From NCBI GenBank assembly GCA_947494445.1, contig CANLVD010000001.1, positions 620,001 to 684,000 of the forward strand: a stretch of DNA of 64,000 nucleotides. The letters are read 5' to 3'. The DNA comes from an uncultured Paracoccaceae bacterium. GTDB taxonomy: Bacteria; Pseudomonadota; Alphaproteobacteria; Rhodobacterales; Rhodobacteraceae. Below the pieces are notes generated by a model, which made no database searches, was not told the origin of the DNA, and saw nothing but the letters and a program-made list of their open reading frames with translations. This document shows, piece by piece, positions 8,710 through 60,879 of this stretch; position 1 is the first letter of the stretch, and every line of letters starts with the position of its first letter. The position numbers and the translations under genes are program-made.

Positions 8710-9650
8710 GCGGACAACCGTCTTTCGATGGCGTCCCAGATCAGGCCAGCGCCATTGGTGCCGTCGAACCGCTCAAGCTCCTGAAGACCGGTGGGGGAGG
8801 TGACGTTAATCTCGGTCAGATAGTCTCCGATCACGTCGATGCCCACGAAAATCTGGCCCTTTTCACGCAGCAAGGGGCCTATGGCCTCGCAGATCTCGCG
8901 ATCTCTCTCGGTCAACCCAATGGGCTCGGCCTTTCCGCCGACATGCATGTTGGACCGCACTTCGCCCTGCTGTGGCACCCGGTTGATCGCACCGATCGGT
9001 TCGCCATCAACCAGAATGATGCGCTTGTCTCCGTTTGTGACCATGGGCAGGTACTTCTGCATGATCAGAGGCTCATGATTGATGCCCGAAAACAGCTCGA
9101 AGAGCGAAGACAGGTTGTGATCCTCGGGCGCAAGGCGAAAGACGCCCGCACCGCCATTGCCATAGAGCGGTTTCAGGATCACGTCCTTGTGCCGGGCGCG
9201 GAATGCCTTGAGCGTTTCCAGATCGCGGGTCACCGCGGTTGGAGGCGTGAGATCCGGGAAATCGAGCACCAGAAGTTTTTCGGGATAATTGCGGACCCAG
9301 AACGGGTCGTTCACGACCAATGTGTCCGGGTGAACCCGGTCGAGAAGGTGGGTTGACGTGATATAGCCCATGTCGAACGGGGGATCCTGACGCAACCAGA
9401 TGACATCCTGAATGGACAGATCAATCTCGGTCTCAGGTGCCAGTATCGCGGGTGCGCCCGGAACGCGCTGTACCGTGACCGGATGGCCCTTTGCGGTCAT
9501 CTTGCCCTCGACATAGGCAAGCTGGTCCGGCTGATAGACGAAGAGAGCGTGTCCCCGGCTTTGCGCCTCTTCCATCAGGCGAAAGGACGAATCCGCATTT
9601 ATGTCGACGGCCTGAACCGGGTCCATCTGAAAAGCCACATTAAGATGCAT
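8706..9650 (-). CDS. gshB: glutathione synthase
   Basis: GshB adds glycine to gamma-glutamylcysteine, the last step of glutathione synthesis. The 314-residue chain starts MHLNVAFQMDPVQAVDINADSSF, the family start with the MDP motif, and continues with an ATP-grasp domain: ILKPLYGNGGAGVFR near 155-169, the QKYLP segment, and the late EINVTSPTGLQELER metal-binding and substrate segment. GAGGAGG sits seven bases before the ATG. The gene follows yraN on the same strand after an 80-base gap that shows no terminator. A GST gene is nearby but on the other strand. Confidence 0.96.
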   Translation of the reverse strand: MHLNVAFQMDPVQAVDINADSSFRLMEEAQSRGHALFVYQPDQLAYVEGKMTAKGHPVTVQRVPGAPAILAPETEIDLSIQDVIWLRQDPPFDMGYITSTHLLDRVHPDTLVVNDPFWVRNYPEKLLVLDFPDLTPPTAVTRDLETLKAFRARHKDVILKPLYGNGGAGVFRLAPEDHNLSSLFELFSGINHEPLIMQKYLPMVTNGDKRIILVDGEPIGAINRVPQQGEVRSNMHVGGKAEPIGLTERDREICEAIGPLLREKGQIFVGIDVIGDYLTEINVTSPTGLQELERFDGTNGAGLIWDAIERRLSA

Positions 9651-54894: not shown

Positions 54895-56187
54895 TCACTC
54901 TGTCGACGACACTTCCACCGGGGCAGCGCCGAGCACCTCGGGGTCTTCCAGATGAGCATCCATGATGTCGAACCAGACCCCGTTTTCCGACAGAAGTTTC
55001 AGCCCCTCATTGACCAGTTGGATGTTCTCTTGCGCATTGACCGCAATCCGGGGCGCAATCGCATGGAAGGATGAAACAGCCGTCAGCGCATCAAGCACCA
55101 GAAGCGGGTTCTGCACTTCCATCGTCTTGACCGCGGCCCGGGCAACCGTGCCGTCCATGGAGGCAAAATCGACGGCCCCGCTGTCCAGCATCTCCAGACA
55201 TTCGCGGGCCGATACCGGGCGGATCAGGGTCATCCGGTCGGGCAGAAGGCCCATCTGGAAGAGATCATCTGTGGCATAGCCTGCGGGGCGACAGATCACG
55301 CCGGTGCCCAGTTCCTCTGCCGTGACAGCTTCGGAGCGGGGATTGTCGGCGCGGACATAAAATTCGCGGATGTGGGAGAAGATCGCGTCAGATGCAACAT
55401 AGTGATCGCACAGGGTTTCTTCAGAAGCGGTCAGGGTGTCCAGCGCGCAGTCGGGGTAGATCCAGGGAAAGCCGATGTCGAAGCCGCCGCGTGGCAGCAG
55501 GATGGTCAGATGGGCATCGCGGTCATTGACGAAGGCGATGTCCACCTCGGGCGCGTCATCGACCAGTGCGATTGCGCCGCTCAGGATCTCGGTGATCAGG
55601 CCGCCGTTCTTGAGGTCATCTCCGGCGAAGGGCGCGAAAGGCCCGCCGCTGAGCAGACGCAGGCTGGTAATCTTGGTCATCGGCTGGCCCAGCCGGGGCA
55701 GATCTTCCAACCCACCGGCTGCCAGTGTCATGACCGAGCCCGCCGGTTGGGCCAGTACGGATGCCGACATCTTGGGGGCCATGGCCGGGGTCTCAGCCGC
55801 GCCGCTGACCGGCTCTTCCGCGATGTCGATCAGGGTGGATTGGACGGCAGCAGGCTGGACCTGAGCGGCTGGTGTCTGGGGCGAGACCTGCGCCACGTCC
55901 ACCCCATCTGCATCTGCACGGAAGCAGGGCAGTGCCAGAACCATGCCGATGGTCAGCGTGTCGGGGTCAAAACCGATGCGATCCCGGTTGGCCGCATAGA
56001 TCGCCTCCATCCGGTCGGTGGTGCCGTAGTATTGCAGGGAAATCCGCGAGAGATGATCGCCTAGGGCCACCTTGTGGGTTCCGCAATTGTCCGCCTGAGC
56101 CAGAGCTGGGGGAGCGGTTCCGATCAGGGGTGCCGTTGTCGCCAGCGCGACAAGCGCGCATGCATTAACCAGTTTTCGTCCAAACAT
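54895..56187 (-). CDS. exported fusion of LysM and a solute-binding (SBP_bac_3-like) domain
   Basis: The 430-residue protein has a signal peptide cleaved after ALA near residue 30. A LysM domain (about 37-89: HKVALGDHLSRISLQYYG to IGMVLALPCF) binds peptidoglycan. After a Pro/Ala-rich linker (about 90-150) comes a domain like family-3 periplasmic solute-binding proteins (about 165-415), with DIGFPWIYPDC, ELGTGVICRPAGYATDDLF, RPVSARECLEMLDSGAVDFASMDGTVA. No transporter membrane or ATPase genes are close by. It may therefore be a wall-tethered sensor instead of a transport component; that is an inference. The gene is minus-strand, ending next to the ChaC-like gene. Confidence 0.85.
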   Translation of the reverse strand: MFGRKLVNACALVALATTAPLIGTAPPALAQADNCGTHKVALGDHLSRISLQYYGTTDRMEAIYAANRDRIGFDPDTLTIGMVLALPCFRADADGVDVAQVSPQTPAAQVQPAAVQSTLIDIAEEPVSGAAETPAMAPKMSASVLAQPAGSVMTLAAGGLEDLPRLGQPMTKITSLRLLSGGPFAPFAGDDLKNGGLITEILSGAIALVDDAPEVDIAFVNDRDAHLTILLPRGGFDIGFPWIYPDCALDTLTASEETLCDHYVASDAIFSHIREFYVRADNPRSEAVTAEELGTGVICRPAGYATDDLFQMGLLPDRMTLIRPVSARECLEMLDSGAVDFASMDGTVARAAVKTMEVQNPLLVLDALTAVSSFHAIAPRIAVNAQENIQLVNEGLKLLSENGVWFDIMDAHLEDPEVLGAAPVEVSSTE

Positions 56188-56274: not shown

Positions 56275-56742
56275 TCACGTTTGCGCAGGCGCCTCAACCG
56301 TCAGCATCATGCCGTCAGCGGCTGTAATCGTGACCAGACTGCCTTCGGGAACGACCCCGTCCGGACCTGTCGCGCGCCACTGCATGCCGTCGATTTCGAC
56401 CGTACCTTCCGATCCGGTGAAACTGATGACCTTGGCCCGGCGGCCCACCAGTTGGGTGGAGCGCTGGTTCAGCCCCGACACCGGCTCGCCCCCGTCGCCA
56501 AAGCGTGCCATCAGCGCACGGCCCACAAGGGTCAGGATGACCGAGAGCATGGCAAAGAGCGCCACCTGGATCTCTCCGGGCATGTCGGGCGCAAAGGGCA
56601 GGATCACCGCCATCAGCAATGCCGCGAGGCCTGGCCAGATCAGAAAGAACGAAAGTGTCACCATCTCGATCGCGCCAAGCGCAATCCCGAAAGCCACCCA
56701 CCACCAGGGTGAGAGGCCTTCCAGCATGTCGAAATAGGGCAT
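56275..56742 (-). CDS. NfeD-like membrane protein
   Basis: The 155-residue protein has three predicted helices (about 13-70, WWWVAFGIALGAIEMVTLSFFL and following) and a C-terminal OB-fold domain (QLVGRRAKVISFTGSEGTVEIDG), the layout of short NfeD proteins. These work with SPFH/stomatin-like proteins in membrane quality control, and the partner qmcA lies directly upstream on the same strand. The start is placed at the ATG 56740-56742, eight bases after GAGG; an ATG two codons earlier is almost touching the GAGG. Confidence 0.9.
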   Translation of the reverse strand: MPYFDMLEGLSPWWWVAFGIALGAIEMVTLSFFLIWPGLAALLMAVILPFAPDMPGEIQVALFAMLSVILTLVGRALMARFGDGGEPVSGLNQRSTQLVGRRAKVISFTGSEGTVEIDGMQWRATGPDGVVPEGSLVTITAADGMMLTVEAPAQT

Positions 56743-56752
56743 GTCCATGACC

Positions 56753-57673
56753 TCAGCCCTCCCCTTTGACGGCTTTCGTGAGGTCGGTGATCCCTGCAAT
56801 CGAACCGATCAGGCTGGCCGCTTCAAGCGGAACCATGATCGTTTTGGCATTGGGTGCAGAGGCCACATCGCGCAGCGCTTCGGTATATTTCTGGGCGACA
56901 AAGTAGTTGATCGCCTGCACATCACCGGTGGCAATCGCTTCCGAGACCATGCGGGTCGCGGTCGCTTCGGCTTCGGCAGACCGCTCGCGTGCCTCGGCAT
57001 CCAGAAAGGCAGCTTCCTTGCGGCCCTCAGCTTCGCGGATCTGACTTTCGCGCAGACCTTCGGCCTTGAGGATCGCGGACTGCTTCTGACCCTCGGCCAT
57101 CAGGATCTCGGCCCGGCGGTCACGTTCGGCCTTCATCTGGCGGCCCATCGCTTCCGTGATGTCCTTGGGAGGGGCGAGATCCTTGATCTCGACCCGCGTA
57201 ACCTTCACGCCCCAGGGATTGGAGGCCTGATCGATCACCGCCAGAAGACGGGAGTTGATGACATCGCGGTTCGACAGGCTTTCGTCCAGATCCATCGCGC
57301 CGATCACGGCACGAATGTTGGTCTGGCTGAGATTGGTCAGAGCGCGTTCAAGATTGCGAACTTCATATGCTGCCTGAGCGGCATCGACGACCTGATAGAA
57401 GGCAACCGCATCAGCCACCACCATGGCGTTGTCCTTGGTGATCACTTCTTGGCTGTCCACGTCCAGAACCGTTTCCATCATGTTTATCTTGGCCCCGACC
57501 TTGTCCATGATCGGCACCAGAAAACGCAGCCCGGGTTTCAATGTGCGGGTGTAGCGGCCAAATCTTTCAACGGTCCATTCCTCGCCCTGAGGCACGGATT
57601 TGACCGTCATGTAGACAAAGACGAGTGCGAAAACGAGAATTGCGATTGCAGGTGCGCCGAAGGCTTCTAGCAT
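56753..57673 (-). CDS. qmcA: SPFH/Band 7 (stomatin-like) protein, QmcA family
   Basis: The 306-residue protein has an N-terminal membrane anchor (about residues 5-22), the Band 7 domain (VPQGEEWTVERFGRYTRTLKPGLRFLVPIMD) and an Ala/Glu-rich coiled coil (AERDRRAEILMAEGQKQSAILKAEG), which drives oligomer formation as in stomatin. AAGGGA lies seven bases before the ATG. It is coupled with the NfeD-like gene. QmcA-NfeD pairs form membrane complexes that influence membrane-protein turnover. It diverges from the MotA/ExbB-like gene across 194 bases. Confidence 0.94.
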   Translation of the reverse strand: MLEAFGAPAIAILVFALVFVYMTVKSVPQGEEWTVERFGRYTRTLKPGLRFLVPIMDKVGAKINMMETVLDVDSQEVITKDNAMVVADAVAFYQVVDAAQAAYEVRNLERALTNLSQTNIRAVIGAMDLDESLSNRDVINSRLLAVIDQASNPWGVKVTRVEIKDLAPPKDITEAMGRQMKAERDRRAEILMAEGQKQSAILKAEGLRESQIREAEGRKEAAFLDAEARERSAEAEATATRMVSEAIATGDVQAINYFVAQKYTEALRDVASAPNAKTIMVPLEAASLIGSIAGITDLTKAVKGEG

Positions 57674-57867: not shown

Positions 57868-59058
57868 ATGATTGTGGATCGCGAGAAAGAGCCGCAGTTC
57901 TCCCAACCTATCCGCCAGATTTTGGTGATGGTGATCATTCTTGCGCTGGTCGGCGTTGGTGTGTTTTTCGCCTATCCCACGATCTCGCCGATCTTTCTGG
58001 CTTCACCCTATCTGAACGGGGTGATCGTCGCGGTCTTCGTGTTCGGGGTTTTGTCGTGCTTCTGGCAGGTGCTGACGCTGATCTCGTCGGTCAGCTGGAT
58101 CGAAGGCTTTGCGCTGGACAGGCCGGGGCATGAGTTCACATCCTCGCCCGGTCTTCTGGCGTCGCTTGCCGCCCTGCTGAAATCGAAATCGGCGCGCAAG
58201 GCGCTGACCTCAACCTCGACCCGGTCGATCCTGGATTCGGTCGCCACCCGGCTGGATGAGGCGCGGGACATCACGCGCTACATCATCAACCTGCTGATTT
58301 TCCTTGGCCTTCTGGGCACCTTCTATGGTCTTGCCACCACAGTTCCGGCTGTTGTGGACACCATTCGCTCGCTCGCCCCTCAGGAGGGTGTGGGCGCGAT
58401 GGAGGTGTTTGACAACCTGATGACCGGTCTGGAAGAGCAGTTGGGCGGCATGGGCACGGCCTTTGCATCGTCGTTGCTGGGGCTTGCGGGCTCGCTGGTG
58501 GTCGGTCTGCTGGAGCTTTTTGCGGGGCACGGGCAGAACCGGTTCTACCGGGAGCTTGAGGAATGGCTGTCCTCGATCACGCGGATCGGGATCGTCAGCT
58601 CGGAATCTGAAGGCGAGGGCGGATCCTCGCTGGTTGCCGGCATGATGGAACAGACCGGAATGCAGATCGAGGACCTCAAGGAAATCGTGATGCGCGGCGA
58701 AGAACGCCGGATCGACACGGAAACCAAGATCGGCCAGTTAACCGATGCCATCGGCGCCATGACCGGGCGGATCGGCGCAGGCGGCGTGGCGGCAGGGGCC
58801 ACCGTCAGTTCAGCCGATCCCGCATCGATGGACCGGTTGGCCCGGGCACAGGAACGACTTGCCGAGGCGCTGGAAGCGCAGGAAGACAGCGGATCGGTGC
58901 TGGATGGCGAGGCCCGTACGCGACTGCGCAACATCGATGTGCAGCTTGTGCGCGTGCTGGAAGAGATGTCGGCAGGGCGACAGGACAGCATGGCGGAGCT
59001 GCGCCATGACCTGCATGGCCTGACCGAGGCGATCCGCGTATTGGCCGAGCGGCGCTGA
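57868..59058 (+). CDS. MotA/TolQ/ExbB-like proton-channel protein with C-terminal coiled coil
   Basis: The 396-residue protein has four predicted membrane helices (about 17-36, 51-72, 138-160, 198-219). Helices 3 and 4 carry the MotA/ExbB signature: IINLLIFLGLLGTFYGLATTVP and EEQLGGMGTAFASSLLGLAGSLVV. The C-terminal 170 residues are cytoplasmic and charged with coiled-coil character (MDRLARAQERLAEALEAQED). No flagellar or TonB genes are close. It is four bases upstream of the MotB/OmpA-like gene, which supplies the plug partner, so the two very likely form one ion-driven complex. The ATG at 57868 follows GAGGACGAG; a longer reading lacks support. Confidence 0.88.
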   Translation: MIVDREKEPQFSQPIRQILVMVIILALVGVGVFFAYPTISPIFLASPYLNGVIVAVFVFGVLSCFWQVLTLISSVSWIEGFALDRPGHEFTSSPGLLASLAALLKSKSARKALTSTSTRSILDSVATRLDEARDITRYIINLLIFLGLLGTFYGLATTVPAVVDTIRSLAPQEGVGAMEVFDNLMTGLEEQLGGMGTAFASSLLGLAGSLVVGLLELFAGHGQNRFYRELEEWLSSITRIGIVSSESEGEGGSSLVAGMMEQTGMQIEDLKEIVMRGEERRIDTETKIGQLTDAIGAMTGRIGAGGVAAGATVSSADPASMDRLARAQERLAEALEAQEDSGSVLDGEARTRLRNIDVQLVRVLEEMSAGRQDSMAELRHDLHGLTEAIRVLAERR

Positions 59059-59062
59059 CGCG

Positions 59063-60832
59063 ATGGCACTGGCACGACGCTCTGGCAGACGGTTCGAGGC
59101 CAACATCTGGCCCGGCTTTGTCGATGCCATGACAGCGCTTCTGCTGGTGCTGTTTTTCGTGCTCACCATCTTCATGATCGTCCAGTTCGTGTTGCGCGAT
59201 ACGATTACCCAGCAGGATGACCGGCTGGATGACTTTTCCAATCAGATCGCTGATCTGGCGCAGGCTTTGGGACTTGAACAGCAAAGCAATTTCGAGTTGG
59301 AAAACGAGCTTGGCGCGGTCAACCAGTCGCTTGATACGGCCGAAGATCAGGTCGCCCGTCAGACCAGTCTGATCGCGACGCTGAGCGCGGAGCGGGACAG
59401 TCTGAACGCTGAGGCTGCGGCAGCGGCAGCCCGGATTTCGAATTTCGAGGAACAGGTAGCCGGTCTTCTGGCGCGCAACCGTGATCTTGATGCGTCGCTC
59501 GTGGCGGCACGCGGTCGGGCCGAGGAACTGGACACTGAACTGGCTTCGGCCACGGCTCAGGCTGATGCAGCAGAGCGCGATCTGAGTGCTGCACGCGCCT
59601 CCATCGCGGCATTGGAAGACGCCAACAGCCGCGAGATCTCGGCCAAGGAAGCGCTGCAACTGGCTCTTGCACAGGCGCGCGACGAGGTTGACGAGGGTAC
59701 GGAAGCCGCGCGTCTGGCCGCAGCACAGCGCGAGGCCATGGAGGCGTTGCTGGCAGATCTGCGCGCACAGGCCGAGCAGGATGCGGCAGAACTGGCAGAG
59801 AACGAAACGGCTTTGGCCGAACAGCAAGCCGCACTGACGGAGGCGGAACGTGCTCAAGCGCTGGATGCAGCGGCGGCGGCGGCTCTGCGCAGACGTCTGG
59901 CGGAAAGCTCGGAAGAACTGACCGCAATGACGCTGAACCTTGAGGCCGAGCGCAAGAAGGCTGAGGATACGCTCACTCTTCTGGCGTCGGCCCGCGCGGC
60001 ACGTGCAGCGCTTGAGGCCGAGAAAGAGGCATTGAGTGCCGAGGTCGCGGCCAATCTCAGCGACACGGAACGCGATCGCGCACTGCTCGCGCTCGCGCAA
60101 CAGGAACTGAGCGACGAGCAGCAGCTGTCGCTGGAAAACCAGCGCCGGGTTGCACTGCTGAACCAGCAGACAGAGGCGCTGCGCAATCAGTTGAACGCCC
60201 TGCAGGGACTTCTGGATGAGGCCAAGGCCAAGGATGACGCGGCGCAGGTGCAGATGAGCCTTCTGGGTCAGAACCTGAACACTGCACTGGCCCGAGCCGC
60301 TGCCGAGCAGAAGAAGCGCGCCGAATTGGAAGAGGCCGAGCGCAAGCGGCTTGAAGTCGAAGCGCAGGATCTGGCCAGCTACCGGTCGGAGTTTTTCGGT
60401 CGGGTGCGGGAGATCATCGCCGGGCGTGAGGGCATTCAAGTCGTTGGCGACCGCTTTGTCTTCTCATCAGAGGTTCTGTTCGGACGCGGTTCCGCCACGC
60501 TGGGGTCCGGCGGGCGGGCGCAATTGGCTGATGTGGCTTCGGTCATTCGTGAGATTGCACCGGAAATCCCGCCCGAGATTGACTGGGTGCTCAGGGTGGA
60601 TGGGCATACCGACAACATTCCGCTGTCAGGTGGCGGGTCATTTGCGGACAACTGGGAACTGAGCCAGGCGCGAGCCCTGTCGGTTGTGCGCTACCTGATT
60701 GCCAATGAGAACATCCCGGCAGACAGGCTGGCGGCCAATGGATTTGGCGAGTTCCAGCCCATTGACACTGGCACCACGCCGGACGCACTGGCGCGGAACC
60801 GGCGGATCGAGTTGAAGTTTACCGAGAAATAG
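59063..60832 (+). CDS. MotB/OmpA-like protein with a very long periplasmic coiled coil
   Basis: The 589-residue protein starts with a single membrane helix preceded by the motif WPGFVDAMTALLLVLFFVLT, in which Asp21 is placed like the proton-binding Asp of MotB. A coiled coil of roughly 400 residues follows (about 47-445), extremely rich in Ala, Glu, Leu and Arg. The last 140 residues are an OmpA/MotB peptidoglycan-binding domain (HTDNIPLSGGGSFADNWELSQARALS and RNRRIELKF). A canonical MotB is about half as long and has no such coil. It is partner to the preceding gene and ends at a bidirectional terminator (60844-60879). Confidence 0.9.
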   Translation: MALARRSGRRFEANIWPGFVDAMTALLLVLFFVLTIFMIVQFVLRDTITQQDDRLDDFSNQIADLAQALGLEQQSNFELENELGAVNQSLDTAEDQVARQTSLIATLSAERDSLNAEAAAAAARISNFEEQVAGLLARNRDLDASLVAARGRAEELDTELASATAQADAAERDLSAARASIAALEDANSREISAKEALQLALAQARDEVDEGTEAARLAAAQREAMEALLADLRAQAEQDAAELAENETALAEQQAALTEAERAQALDAAAAAALRRRLAESSEELTAMTLNLEAERKKAEDTLTLLASARAARAALEAEKEALSAEVAANLSDTERDRALLALAQQELSDEQQLSLENQRRVALLNQQTEALRNQLNALQGLLDEAKAKDDAAQVQMSLLGQNLNTALARAAAEQKKRAELEEAERKRLEVEAQDLASYRSEFFGRVREIIAGREGIQVVGDRFVFSSEVLFGRGSATLGSGGRAQLADVASVIREIAPEIPPEIDWVLRVDGHTDNIPLSGGGSFADNWELSQARALSVVRYLIANENIPADRLAANGFGEFQPIDTGTTPDALARNRRIELKFTEK

Positions 60833-60843
60833 GTGTGACCATC

Positions 60844-60879
60844 AAAAAACCCCGGTGAGCGGATCACCGGGGTTTTTCT
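60844..60879. terminator. bidirectional rho-independent terminator
   Basis: CCCCGGTGA (60850-60858), loop GCGGA, TCACCGGGG (60864-60872), flanked by six A on one side and five T on the other. It can serve both the OmpA-like gene on the plus strand and clpA on the minus strand. Confidence 0.93.

Follow-up and report, generated by a model that had tools for sequence, protein, structure and literature searches.

The A-B gene pair

The window analysed here is a 64,000-nucleotide stretch from an uncultured Paracoccaceae bacterium (assembly GCA_947494445.1, contig CANLVD010000001.1, positions 620,001 to 684,000), and our subject is two of its genes, here called A and B, which pair a MotA/ExbB-type channel subunit with a MotB/OmpA-type anchor subunit. 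A preliminary description of this DNA had reported two adjacent genes four bases apart, and the open reading frames (ORFs) agree, with four bases between the stop codon of A and the ATG of B. By the tests reported below the pair is neither flagellar, nor Tol/Exb, nor Zorya. The locus comprises the following features, with lengths in amino acids (aa) and transmembrane abbreviated to TM:

57868..59058, + strand: gene A, an ORF for a four-TM channel subunit of the MotA/TolQ/ExbB/ZorA type, 396 aa
59063..60832, + strand: gene B, for a PRK09039 (NF006542) protein of 589 aa with a TM helix with Asp21, a coil and an OmpA domain
59198..60418, + strand: coil-encoding part of B, residues 46-452, ~60 nm if a single straight coiled coil
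60446..60829, + strand: OmpA-domain part of B, residues ~462-589, MotB-like, with H515-T516-D517, L533, R537 and R580-R581 invariant
60845..60877, + strand: stem of 14 pairs with T-rich ends, from a consensus scan; lies between B and the convergent clpA and is probably a terminator

Because this putative terminator separates B from clpA, the pair is probably a two-gene operon, closed by the stem.

The product of A has four hydropathy peaks (residues 18-36, 51-69, 139-157 and 197-215) and scores 19.1 bits (E 0.0012) against the Pfam family MotA_ExbB (PF01618), just below the cut-off of 22.9, while the gathering score is exceeded by two of its relatives (24.9 and 25.4 bits, neighbouring stretches in frame). 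No MotA N-terminal domain was found in the Pfam scan of A, no NCBIfam model reached its cut-off with A or with two further A proteins, and the NCBIfam model ZorA_4 gave 14.9 bits against a cut-off of 500. PADLOC matched A to ZorA1 (41 bits, E 2.6e-11), a result that has no curated cut-off and is biased in that ZorA is the MotA-type entry of the library that answered; among PDB structures the best MotA-type profile match of A is also a ZorA (8vvn, E 0.0033), ranking below a designed coil. An AlphaFold model from 45 sequences (mean predicted local distance difference test score, pLDDT, 75; predicted template modelling score, pTM, 0.58) draws main helices at 15-45, 47-82, 115-168 and 177-244, plus short ones. 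In the VIA list its core matches TolQ (Z 11.8; 3.6 Å, 190 residues), ExbB (11.6), ZorA (10.2) and MotA (9.1), the rows outside the superfamily being generic helical proteins that we left unused. This resemblance of a predicted fold is support, not proof, and is joined by the conservation of the ion path. When A is aligned with MotA, ExbB and TolQ of E. coli, with the TolQ and MotA of the same genome and with ZorA3 rows, T151 in TM3 of A falls on the Thr of GLFGTVWG in TolQ/ExbB and on the Thr of the ZorA3 rows shown, and S202 in TM4 coincides with a TM4 Thr in each of ExbB, TolQ and MotA and with the Ser of ZorA3; both residues are invariant among A proteins (14/14 and 45/45 rows).

Over its whole length B is a full member of NF006542, with 696.8 bits where the cut-off is 388; it reaches the cut-off of NF006543 as well (339.5 bits against 305). 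Both models belong to PRK09039 (NCBIfam NF006542-NF006546), which is labelled 'peptidoglycan -binding protein'. Neither cut-off was reached in the 14 named genomes used as controls, among them Caulobacter vibrioides. We found no functional study of PRK09039 or of the A-B pair in the open-licence PMC literature, and the available portions of PMC8508746 and PMC10246785 hold nothing on function. The preliminary description had allowed that both proteins might prove to belong to a characterised family; B does carry a family name, to which no role was found attached, and A passes no cut-off.

The architecture that the same description had given B, a single helix with a MotB-like Asp21, an Ala/Glu-rich periplasmic coil of about 400 residues and an OmpA domain, holds in each part. 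The protein has one hydrophobic helix (26-44), and Asp21 lies in the motif WPGFVDAMTA, invariant in 10/10 and 20/20 rows, where D-A-M-T-A stands at the same place by motif as D-F-M-T-A in E. coli MotB. The coil at 46-452 has 407 residues (24% Ala, 13% Glu, 15% Leu), and proline is absent from residues 18-499. The OmpA domain scores 57.9 bits in Pfam against a cut-off of 27.2; the C-terminal 190 residues find their best PDB matches in MotB (3khn, E 9.5e-14; 6ysl, 6ysf), with MotS and PomB also matched, and no TolR/ExbD periplasmic domain was found for B among the Pfam and NCBIfam families shown. Within the domain H515, D517, L533, R537 and R580-R581 are invariant and were matched, by motif order and not by structure, to H186, D188, L199, R203 and R254/R259 of ZorB I. 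According to PMC11890865, mutation of ZorB H186, L199, R203, R254 or R259 leads to a loss of wall binding and defence, D188 is named as the counterpart of S143 in ZorB II, and D24 of ZorB is required for defence.

Length and continuity of the B coil

We measured the coil span of B as the distance from WPGFVD to GDRF, both of which were present in 184 of 212 sources (loci L023-L233 and the window; L001-L022 were excluded). The 160 distinct sequences give 104 distinct lengths between 163 and 1296 residues, an almost eight-fold range, and these lengths step by 3.5 residues, with a Rayleigh R of 0.65 at period 3.50 and, besides its shoulders at 3.49 and 3.51, no R above 0.21 across periods 2.5-20. 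The span modulo 7 is 5, 1 or 2 in 145/160 sequences, and 300 random length sets gave R of at most 0.31 over periods 2.5-12. The rule recurs among the 71 lengths of Rhodobacteraceae (R 0.60) and the 39 of loci that carry a third gene, C, described below (R 0.79). The hydrophobic residues of the coils peak at period 3.51, and there are 3 Pro in 55,736 coil residues.

Two conserved blocks, near residues 202 and 286, and a third beyond them divide the coil into segments, whose lengths were measured in the 61, 50 and 37 of 94 Rhodobacteraceae rows where the respective block patterns matched. From WPGFVD to the first block there are nine distinct lengths (R = 1.00, 61/94 rows), from the first block to the second there are twelve (R = 0.97, 50 rows), and most of the variation lies after residue 286, where the phase is looser (second to third block, 27 lengths, R 0.53, 37 rows). 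The segments range over 137-459, 70-350 and, from the second block to the end, 162-1047 residues, the value of 459 (L060) being probably a false pattern match, since its block then falls after the second. Of the 14 coils that exceed 700 residues, five (L203, L071, L104, L119, L121) match themselves best at an offset of 28, or four heptads, and for eight of the remaining nine the best offset differs from a multiple of 3.5 by no more than 0.5; the repeats other than 28 are of 35, 39, 53, 63 or 109 residues and mostly keep the seam. When the top 20 offsets of each long coil are pooled, 171/280 are multiples of 7, and the DNA of L119 holds an 84-base tandem unit at 9103-9337, within the B frame. 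To judge from these repeats, the coils seem to have lengthened by duplications that keep the seam.

We consider it likely that the B coil is one unbroken rod. A fixed fold-back hairpin, for which the AlphaFold helices of 118 and 119 residues might be taken, was rejected because the segment lengths vary separately, though the coil may have hinges. If straight, the 407 residues would measure 60 nm at 0.1485 nm each, and the rods of the relatives 18-187 nm (span minus 40 residues). The Gram-negative periplasm is some 20-30 nm wide, and a straight rod, being longer than that, would therefore lie along the wall and not upright. Rhodobacteraceae form the long-coil branch of the family, with a median span of 482.5 (n=94, without C) against 297.5 (n=58) at loci with C. 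The idea that a long B coil compensates for the loss of C was dropped, since non-Rhodobacteraceae without C have a median of 282 (n=8), and length tracks family, not C. As a separate observation, B residues ~197-233 (window 59651-59761) form a block of the coil whose sequence is strongly conserved across 20 Rhodobacteraceae rows; it is located at a break in the AlphaFold model and is possibly a hinge or a partner site.

The long coil is confined to B. The preliminary description had given A a long coiled-coil tail as well, a claim that did not survive: for the ~150 residues of the cytoplasmic tail (245-396) AlphaFold predicts, with low confidence, five helices that are 23-24 residues long and joined by loops, and the A-tail lengths, 33 of them distinct, show no 3.5-residue step (R 0.14). 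On these two grounds we rejected a long coil on A, whose tails are even shorter in L041, L042 and L049 than in the window.

Distribution, neighbours and a third gene

At E <= 0.001, A is found in 34/41 genomes, its own included, in 250/385 genomes of the class Alphaproteobacteria, or about two thirds (four of the 250 with E >1e-30), in 214/315 class genomes of good quality, and in 122/398 genomes of the phylum. The phylum matches outside the class number 35, of which seven are strong (E <= 1e-30); at the six strong loci examined A adjoins B in five (L234-L237, L253), and at L238, the remaining locus, all that was found is a weak OmpA-type match 1.3 kb upstream. Eleven weak A matches also have an OmpA-type neighbour (L239-L249), and the five of these that were scanned are ZorA3. 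Families f13, f63 and f146 include several 100%-complete genomes without A. No A match was found among phage records, and the plasmid collection gave matches in three records only, non-mobilizable and of 3.5-4.6 Mb.

A and B stand side by side on one strand in 151/156 loci (154 distinct places, since L027/L093 and L053/L060 are two places counted twice, here and among the 100 Rhodobacteraceae loci below); the B pattern found nothing at the remaining five, in one of which (L172) BLAST shows a B homologue. The surroundings were compared over 100 Rhodobacteraceae loci, 20 from genomes of the same family and the best 80 from a longer list, a few of which bear broader or other titles (e.g. L072, L074, L081, L095). 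Here A and B are usually preceded by hisC, prephenate dehydrogenase, DUF2125 and ChaC, in that order, and followed by clpA; per 100 loci, many of which end at a contig edge, ChaC occurs in 91, DUF2125 in 84, clpA in 65, prephenate dehydrogenase in 58 and hisC in 54. At the 51 loci from outside Rhodobacteraceae, with stretches reaching ~6 kb per side, the neighbours are suhB (27), a reversed ABC transporter (23), efp (22), thiE (18), a DeoC-type aldolase (11) and sel1 (4); in Sinorhizobium meliloti Ak57 the order is thiE-sel1-suhB-A-B-ABC-rpmE, with no annotated C. The neighbourhood of A-B is recurrent, chromosomal and housekeeping.

Within the window, the neighbours named in the preliminary description are in place: qmcA (Band 7) and nfeD lie divergently upstream, and clpA convergently downstream. 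Beyond qmcA/nfeD follow a gene without a name and then a ChaC-family gene. Because qmcA and nfeD were seen near A in only 5/100 Rhodobacteraceae loci, those of the window (56275-57673) are probably a recent arrival. No ZorC/D/E-like gene was found in a PADLOC scan of nine neighbours, which returned only the AAA-type matches of clpA, in line with the absence of such genes reported earlier. The gene without a name (54895-56187) encodes 430 aa, and its product, which found no match in Pfam but by eye begins like a LysM domain, has a relative of 38% identity beside nfeD in the same-genus locus L023. In several Rhodobacteraceae an M23 peptidase gene (L033:3084-4076, by Pfam match) lies near B and clpA, with BLAST-related ORFs in L026, L029, L030 and L035.

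At 43/51 loci from outside Rhodobacteraceae, A is preceded on its own strand by a third gene, C (e.g. L044, L165, L167, L178, L187), a count obtained with a profile built from 30 loci (those found by a first pattern, 30/56), any of which among the 51 match by construction. C lies within 500 nucleotides (nt) of A in 42/43, and L184 has a sel1 gene in between. Its product has a signal peptide (by eye, with a cleavage-like site), a short motif, a Pro/Ala-rich rod of ~216 residues (23% Pro, 20% Ala; medians from a rough cut, 42/43) and an OmpA-like end, which scores above the Pfam cut-off in 6/6 tested and lacks GHTD in 30 aligned rows. A first pattern for the motif proved too strict (13/43) and was widened once, to a V-x-V-[D/N]-like form that occurs after the signal in 31/43 and in 0.9% of shuffles. 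No NCBIfam model reached its cut-off with four C proteins tested. At the 100 Rhodobacteraceae loci C was not found, weak generic OmpA matches occurring in two; in one and the same search the best C match in 25 same-family genomes was 9.7e-12, against <=2.5e-26 in eight A-bearing genomes of the class. C is a probable third part of the motor proposed below in most of the other alphaproteobacterial loci sampled.

Kinship and possible function

A and B are homologous to the subunits of the MotA/TolQ/ExbB/ZorA superfamily, and a quick tree of 73 rows separates the A family and ZorA3 from TolQ, ExbB and MotA (Shimodaira-Hasegawa-like approximate likelihood ratio test, SH-aLRT, 100), with the A family forming one group (86) and ZorA3 another (96). 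By profile and tree Zorya is the nearest relative of A, and its B-type subunit likewise has a TM Asp and a wall-binding OmpA domain. The preliminary description had been reminded of ZorA by the tails: the resemblance stands for the membrane core (the 8vvn profile match, PADLOC and the one quick tree) and fails for the tail. In five ZorA3 proteins tested the open frame is 698-1295 aa, with a long tail, whereas A is short-tailed, and at ZorA3 loci the ZorB open frame is only 217-251 aa in 8/11, whereas B is long-coiled; moreover, the first helix of the A model (15-45) lies mostly outside the ZorA-aligned range 34-254. Zorya further has effectors and a sporadic distribution (ZorA1 matches at E <= 1e-20 occur in 8/372 class genomes), unlike A-B, which has no effector genes among the nine neighbours and a core distribution. 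The best scores of the five ZorA3 proteins are 786-1226 bits, against 41 for the A of the window, and on the low scores, the missing effector genes and the core distribution we rejected Zorya proper.

With the flagellar stators MotAB/PomAB the pair shares four TM helices, D-x-M-T-A (B against E. coli MotB) and a MotB-type periplasmic domain. It differs from them in that A has no MotA N-terminal Pfam match and falls in a separate clade, and that the coil of B runs to hundreds of residues; the linker of MotB is short. TolQR/ExbBD have a core fold like that of A (Z about 11-12), whereas B has an OmpA domain in place of that of TolR/ExbD. Flagellar or Tol/Exb membership was rejected on the tree and the missing domains, and the same genome has a separate TolQ (C5:223806) and MotA (C5:44351, which scores 201 bits against E. 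coli MotA). A-B pairs that are not flagellar and carry a variety of extensions have been grouped as generic ion transporters (GIT), whose B subunits are stated to have no OmpA-homologous domain (Puente-Lelievre et al. 2025, PMC12505986); with its clear OmpA domain the B described here would be an exception if counted among them.

On balance we lean towards reading A-B as a housekeeping, ion-driven rotary wall motor of this 5:2 superfamily, nearest to ZorAB and fitted with a periplasmic rod. In this model two B helices would stand inside a ring of five A subunits, and ions passing Asp21 of B and T151/S202 of A would turn the ring about B, whose two periplasmic chains may pair into a rod ending in the peptidoglycan-binding domains. 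The lever would then be on the periplasmic side, the reverse of Zorya with its short B and long cytoplasmic A tail. Lying along the wall, the rod could anchor the motor at a distance or drag the wall sideways, and the task might be tension between membrane and wall, drag on the wall, or joint work at the outer membrane with C, a secreted Pro-rich, OmpA-like protein that would be the third part where it occurs.

Among other explanations, a Ton/Tol-like energiser, in which A-B drive C as a transducer whose Pro-rich rod pushes the outer membrane like TonB or TolA, appears unlikely. It would account for the place of C upstream of A on the same strand at 43/51 non-Rhodobacteraceae loci (42 within 500 nt), for its rod (~23% Pro, 20% Ala) and the motif after the signal in 31/43, and for a core of A structurally nearest to TolQ and ExbB; yet C has an ordinary signal peptide by eye and no TonB-like inner-membrane anchor, A-B persist without C (none at 100 Rhodobacteraceae loci, bar the two weak generic OmpA matches), and B carries a MotB-type OmpA domain, not that of TolR/ExbD. 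Somewhat less probable again is a passive or gated tether, in which ion movement has been lost and the pair only links the inner membrane to the wall through the coil, which would act as a flexible leash. The wide freedom of coil length, the repeat expansion and the AlphaFold breaks would suit a leash better than a rigid shaft, but a dead channel would hardly have kept Asp21, T151 and S202 invariant over 10-45 rows, and towards its N-terminus the coil steps in exact heptads, which argues against floppiness there.

We regard as highly improbable a Zorya-kind anti-phage system without known effectors: although the nearest relatives of A are ZorA proteins (ZorA1 in PADLOC at 41 bits, 8vvn in the PDB, ZorA3 in the tree), the score gap to genuine ZorA3 (786-1226 bits at best), the lack of effectors among the nine neighbours, the recurrent housekeeping surroundings, the presence in 250/385 class genomes against 8/372 with ZorA1, and the want of phage records, with three plasmid-collection matches of 3.5-4.6 Mb only, all oppose it. 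A variant or auxiliary flagellar stator, to which four MotA-like TM helices and a B end nearest to MotB might point, earns the least credence of all, as the genome has its own MotA elsewhere, A stands apart from MotA in the tree and has no MotA N-terminal domain in Pfam, and the identified neighbours are not flagellar.

Several points weigh against the wall motor that we prefer. The 5:2 stoichiometry and the rotation are drawn by analogy. The tree was made by a quick method with ZorA3 as the sole ZorA type, and it carries long-branch warnings on A_L238, A_L252 and the group joins. In the VIA list a designed three-helix bundle reaches Z 9.8, so that the fold match is weak alone, and a Foldseek search with A returned nothing at E <= 0.001 (best 0.026, ExbB); at the position of T151, MotA has Ala, not Thr. 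Steps of 3.5 residues are expected of any continuous coiled coil and argue for continuity, not by themselves for torque, and one of their two controls, the C rods (R 0.03), has few lengths (26) and chance peaks up to 0.47 at other periods. An AlphaFold model of B alone (20 sequences, mean pLDDT 71.5, pTM 0.34) breaks the coil at 207-213 and 332-333, with pLDDT <50 near both, where a hinge or fold-back would be possible; the first break was given less weight because the stretch between the first two blocks, in which it lies, keeps near-whole heptads. A was not found in the 100%-complete genomes G023, G028, G036 and G063 and is therefore dispensable. Finally, suhB-C is kept with neither A nor B in the 3.3 kb seen at L274 (genome G026) and L276 (G028), and A was not found in either genome; C survives there without A/B and so need not belong to the motor.

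A wider scenario, tentative and on the doubtful side, would make the wall motor an ancient, vertically inherited alphaproteobacterial class, sister to Zorya and serving the envelope, in which the lever is a periplasmic rod that follows the wall over tens of nanometres to almost 200, rod length is free to change by seam-keeping duplication (in several by 28-residue units) with the coiled-coil phase kept from membrane to wall anchor, C is the outer, Pro-rich part of a three-part machine, and the defence role of Zorya is an offshoot or stems from a shared ancestor. Of the components, the family of B was already named, PRK09039 covering B alone and not A, C or the coil-length rule, and A and C pass no NCBIfam model; new here are the rule of 3.5-residue steps, the seam-keeping repeats and gene C upstream of A outside Rhodobacteraceae. 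The known ion motors of this fold power flagella and gliding, Ton/Tol transport, type 9 secretion or phage defence; a further class in 250/385 sampled genomes, its ion-path and wall-binding residues invariant and no published task found for it, would, if true, amount to a fundamental piece of envelope machinery that the label of B had concealed. Zorya would gain a non-defence relative, with a bearing on its origin, and the natural series of 163-1296 residues, one coil between two fixed ends, would make torque or tension and the length limits of a periplasmic shaft testable.

The A-like proteins of L238 and L252 (open frames of 451 aa and 573 aa, respectively) have diverged and sit on long tree branches, and are possibly further motor types; at L252 the B-like gene lies directly upstream of the A-like gene, not downstream.

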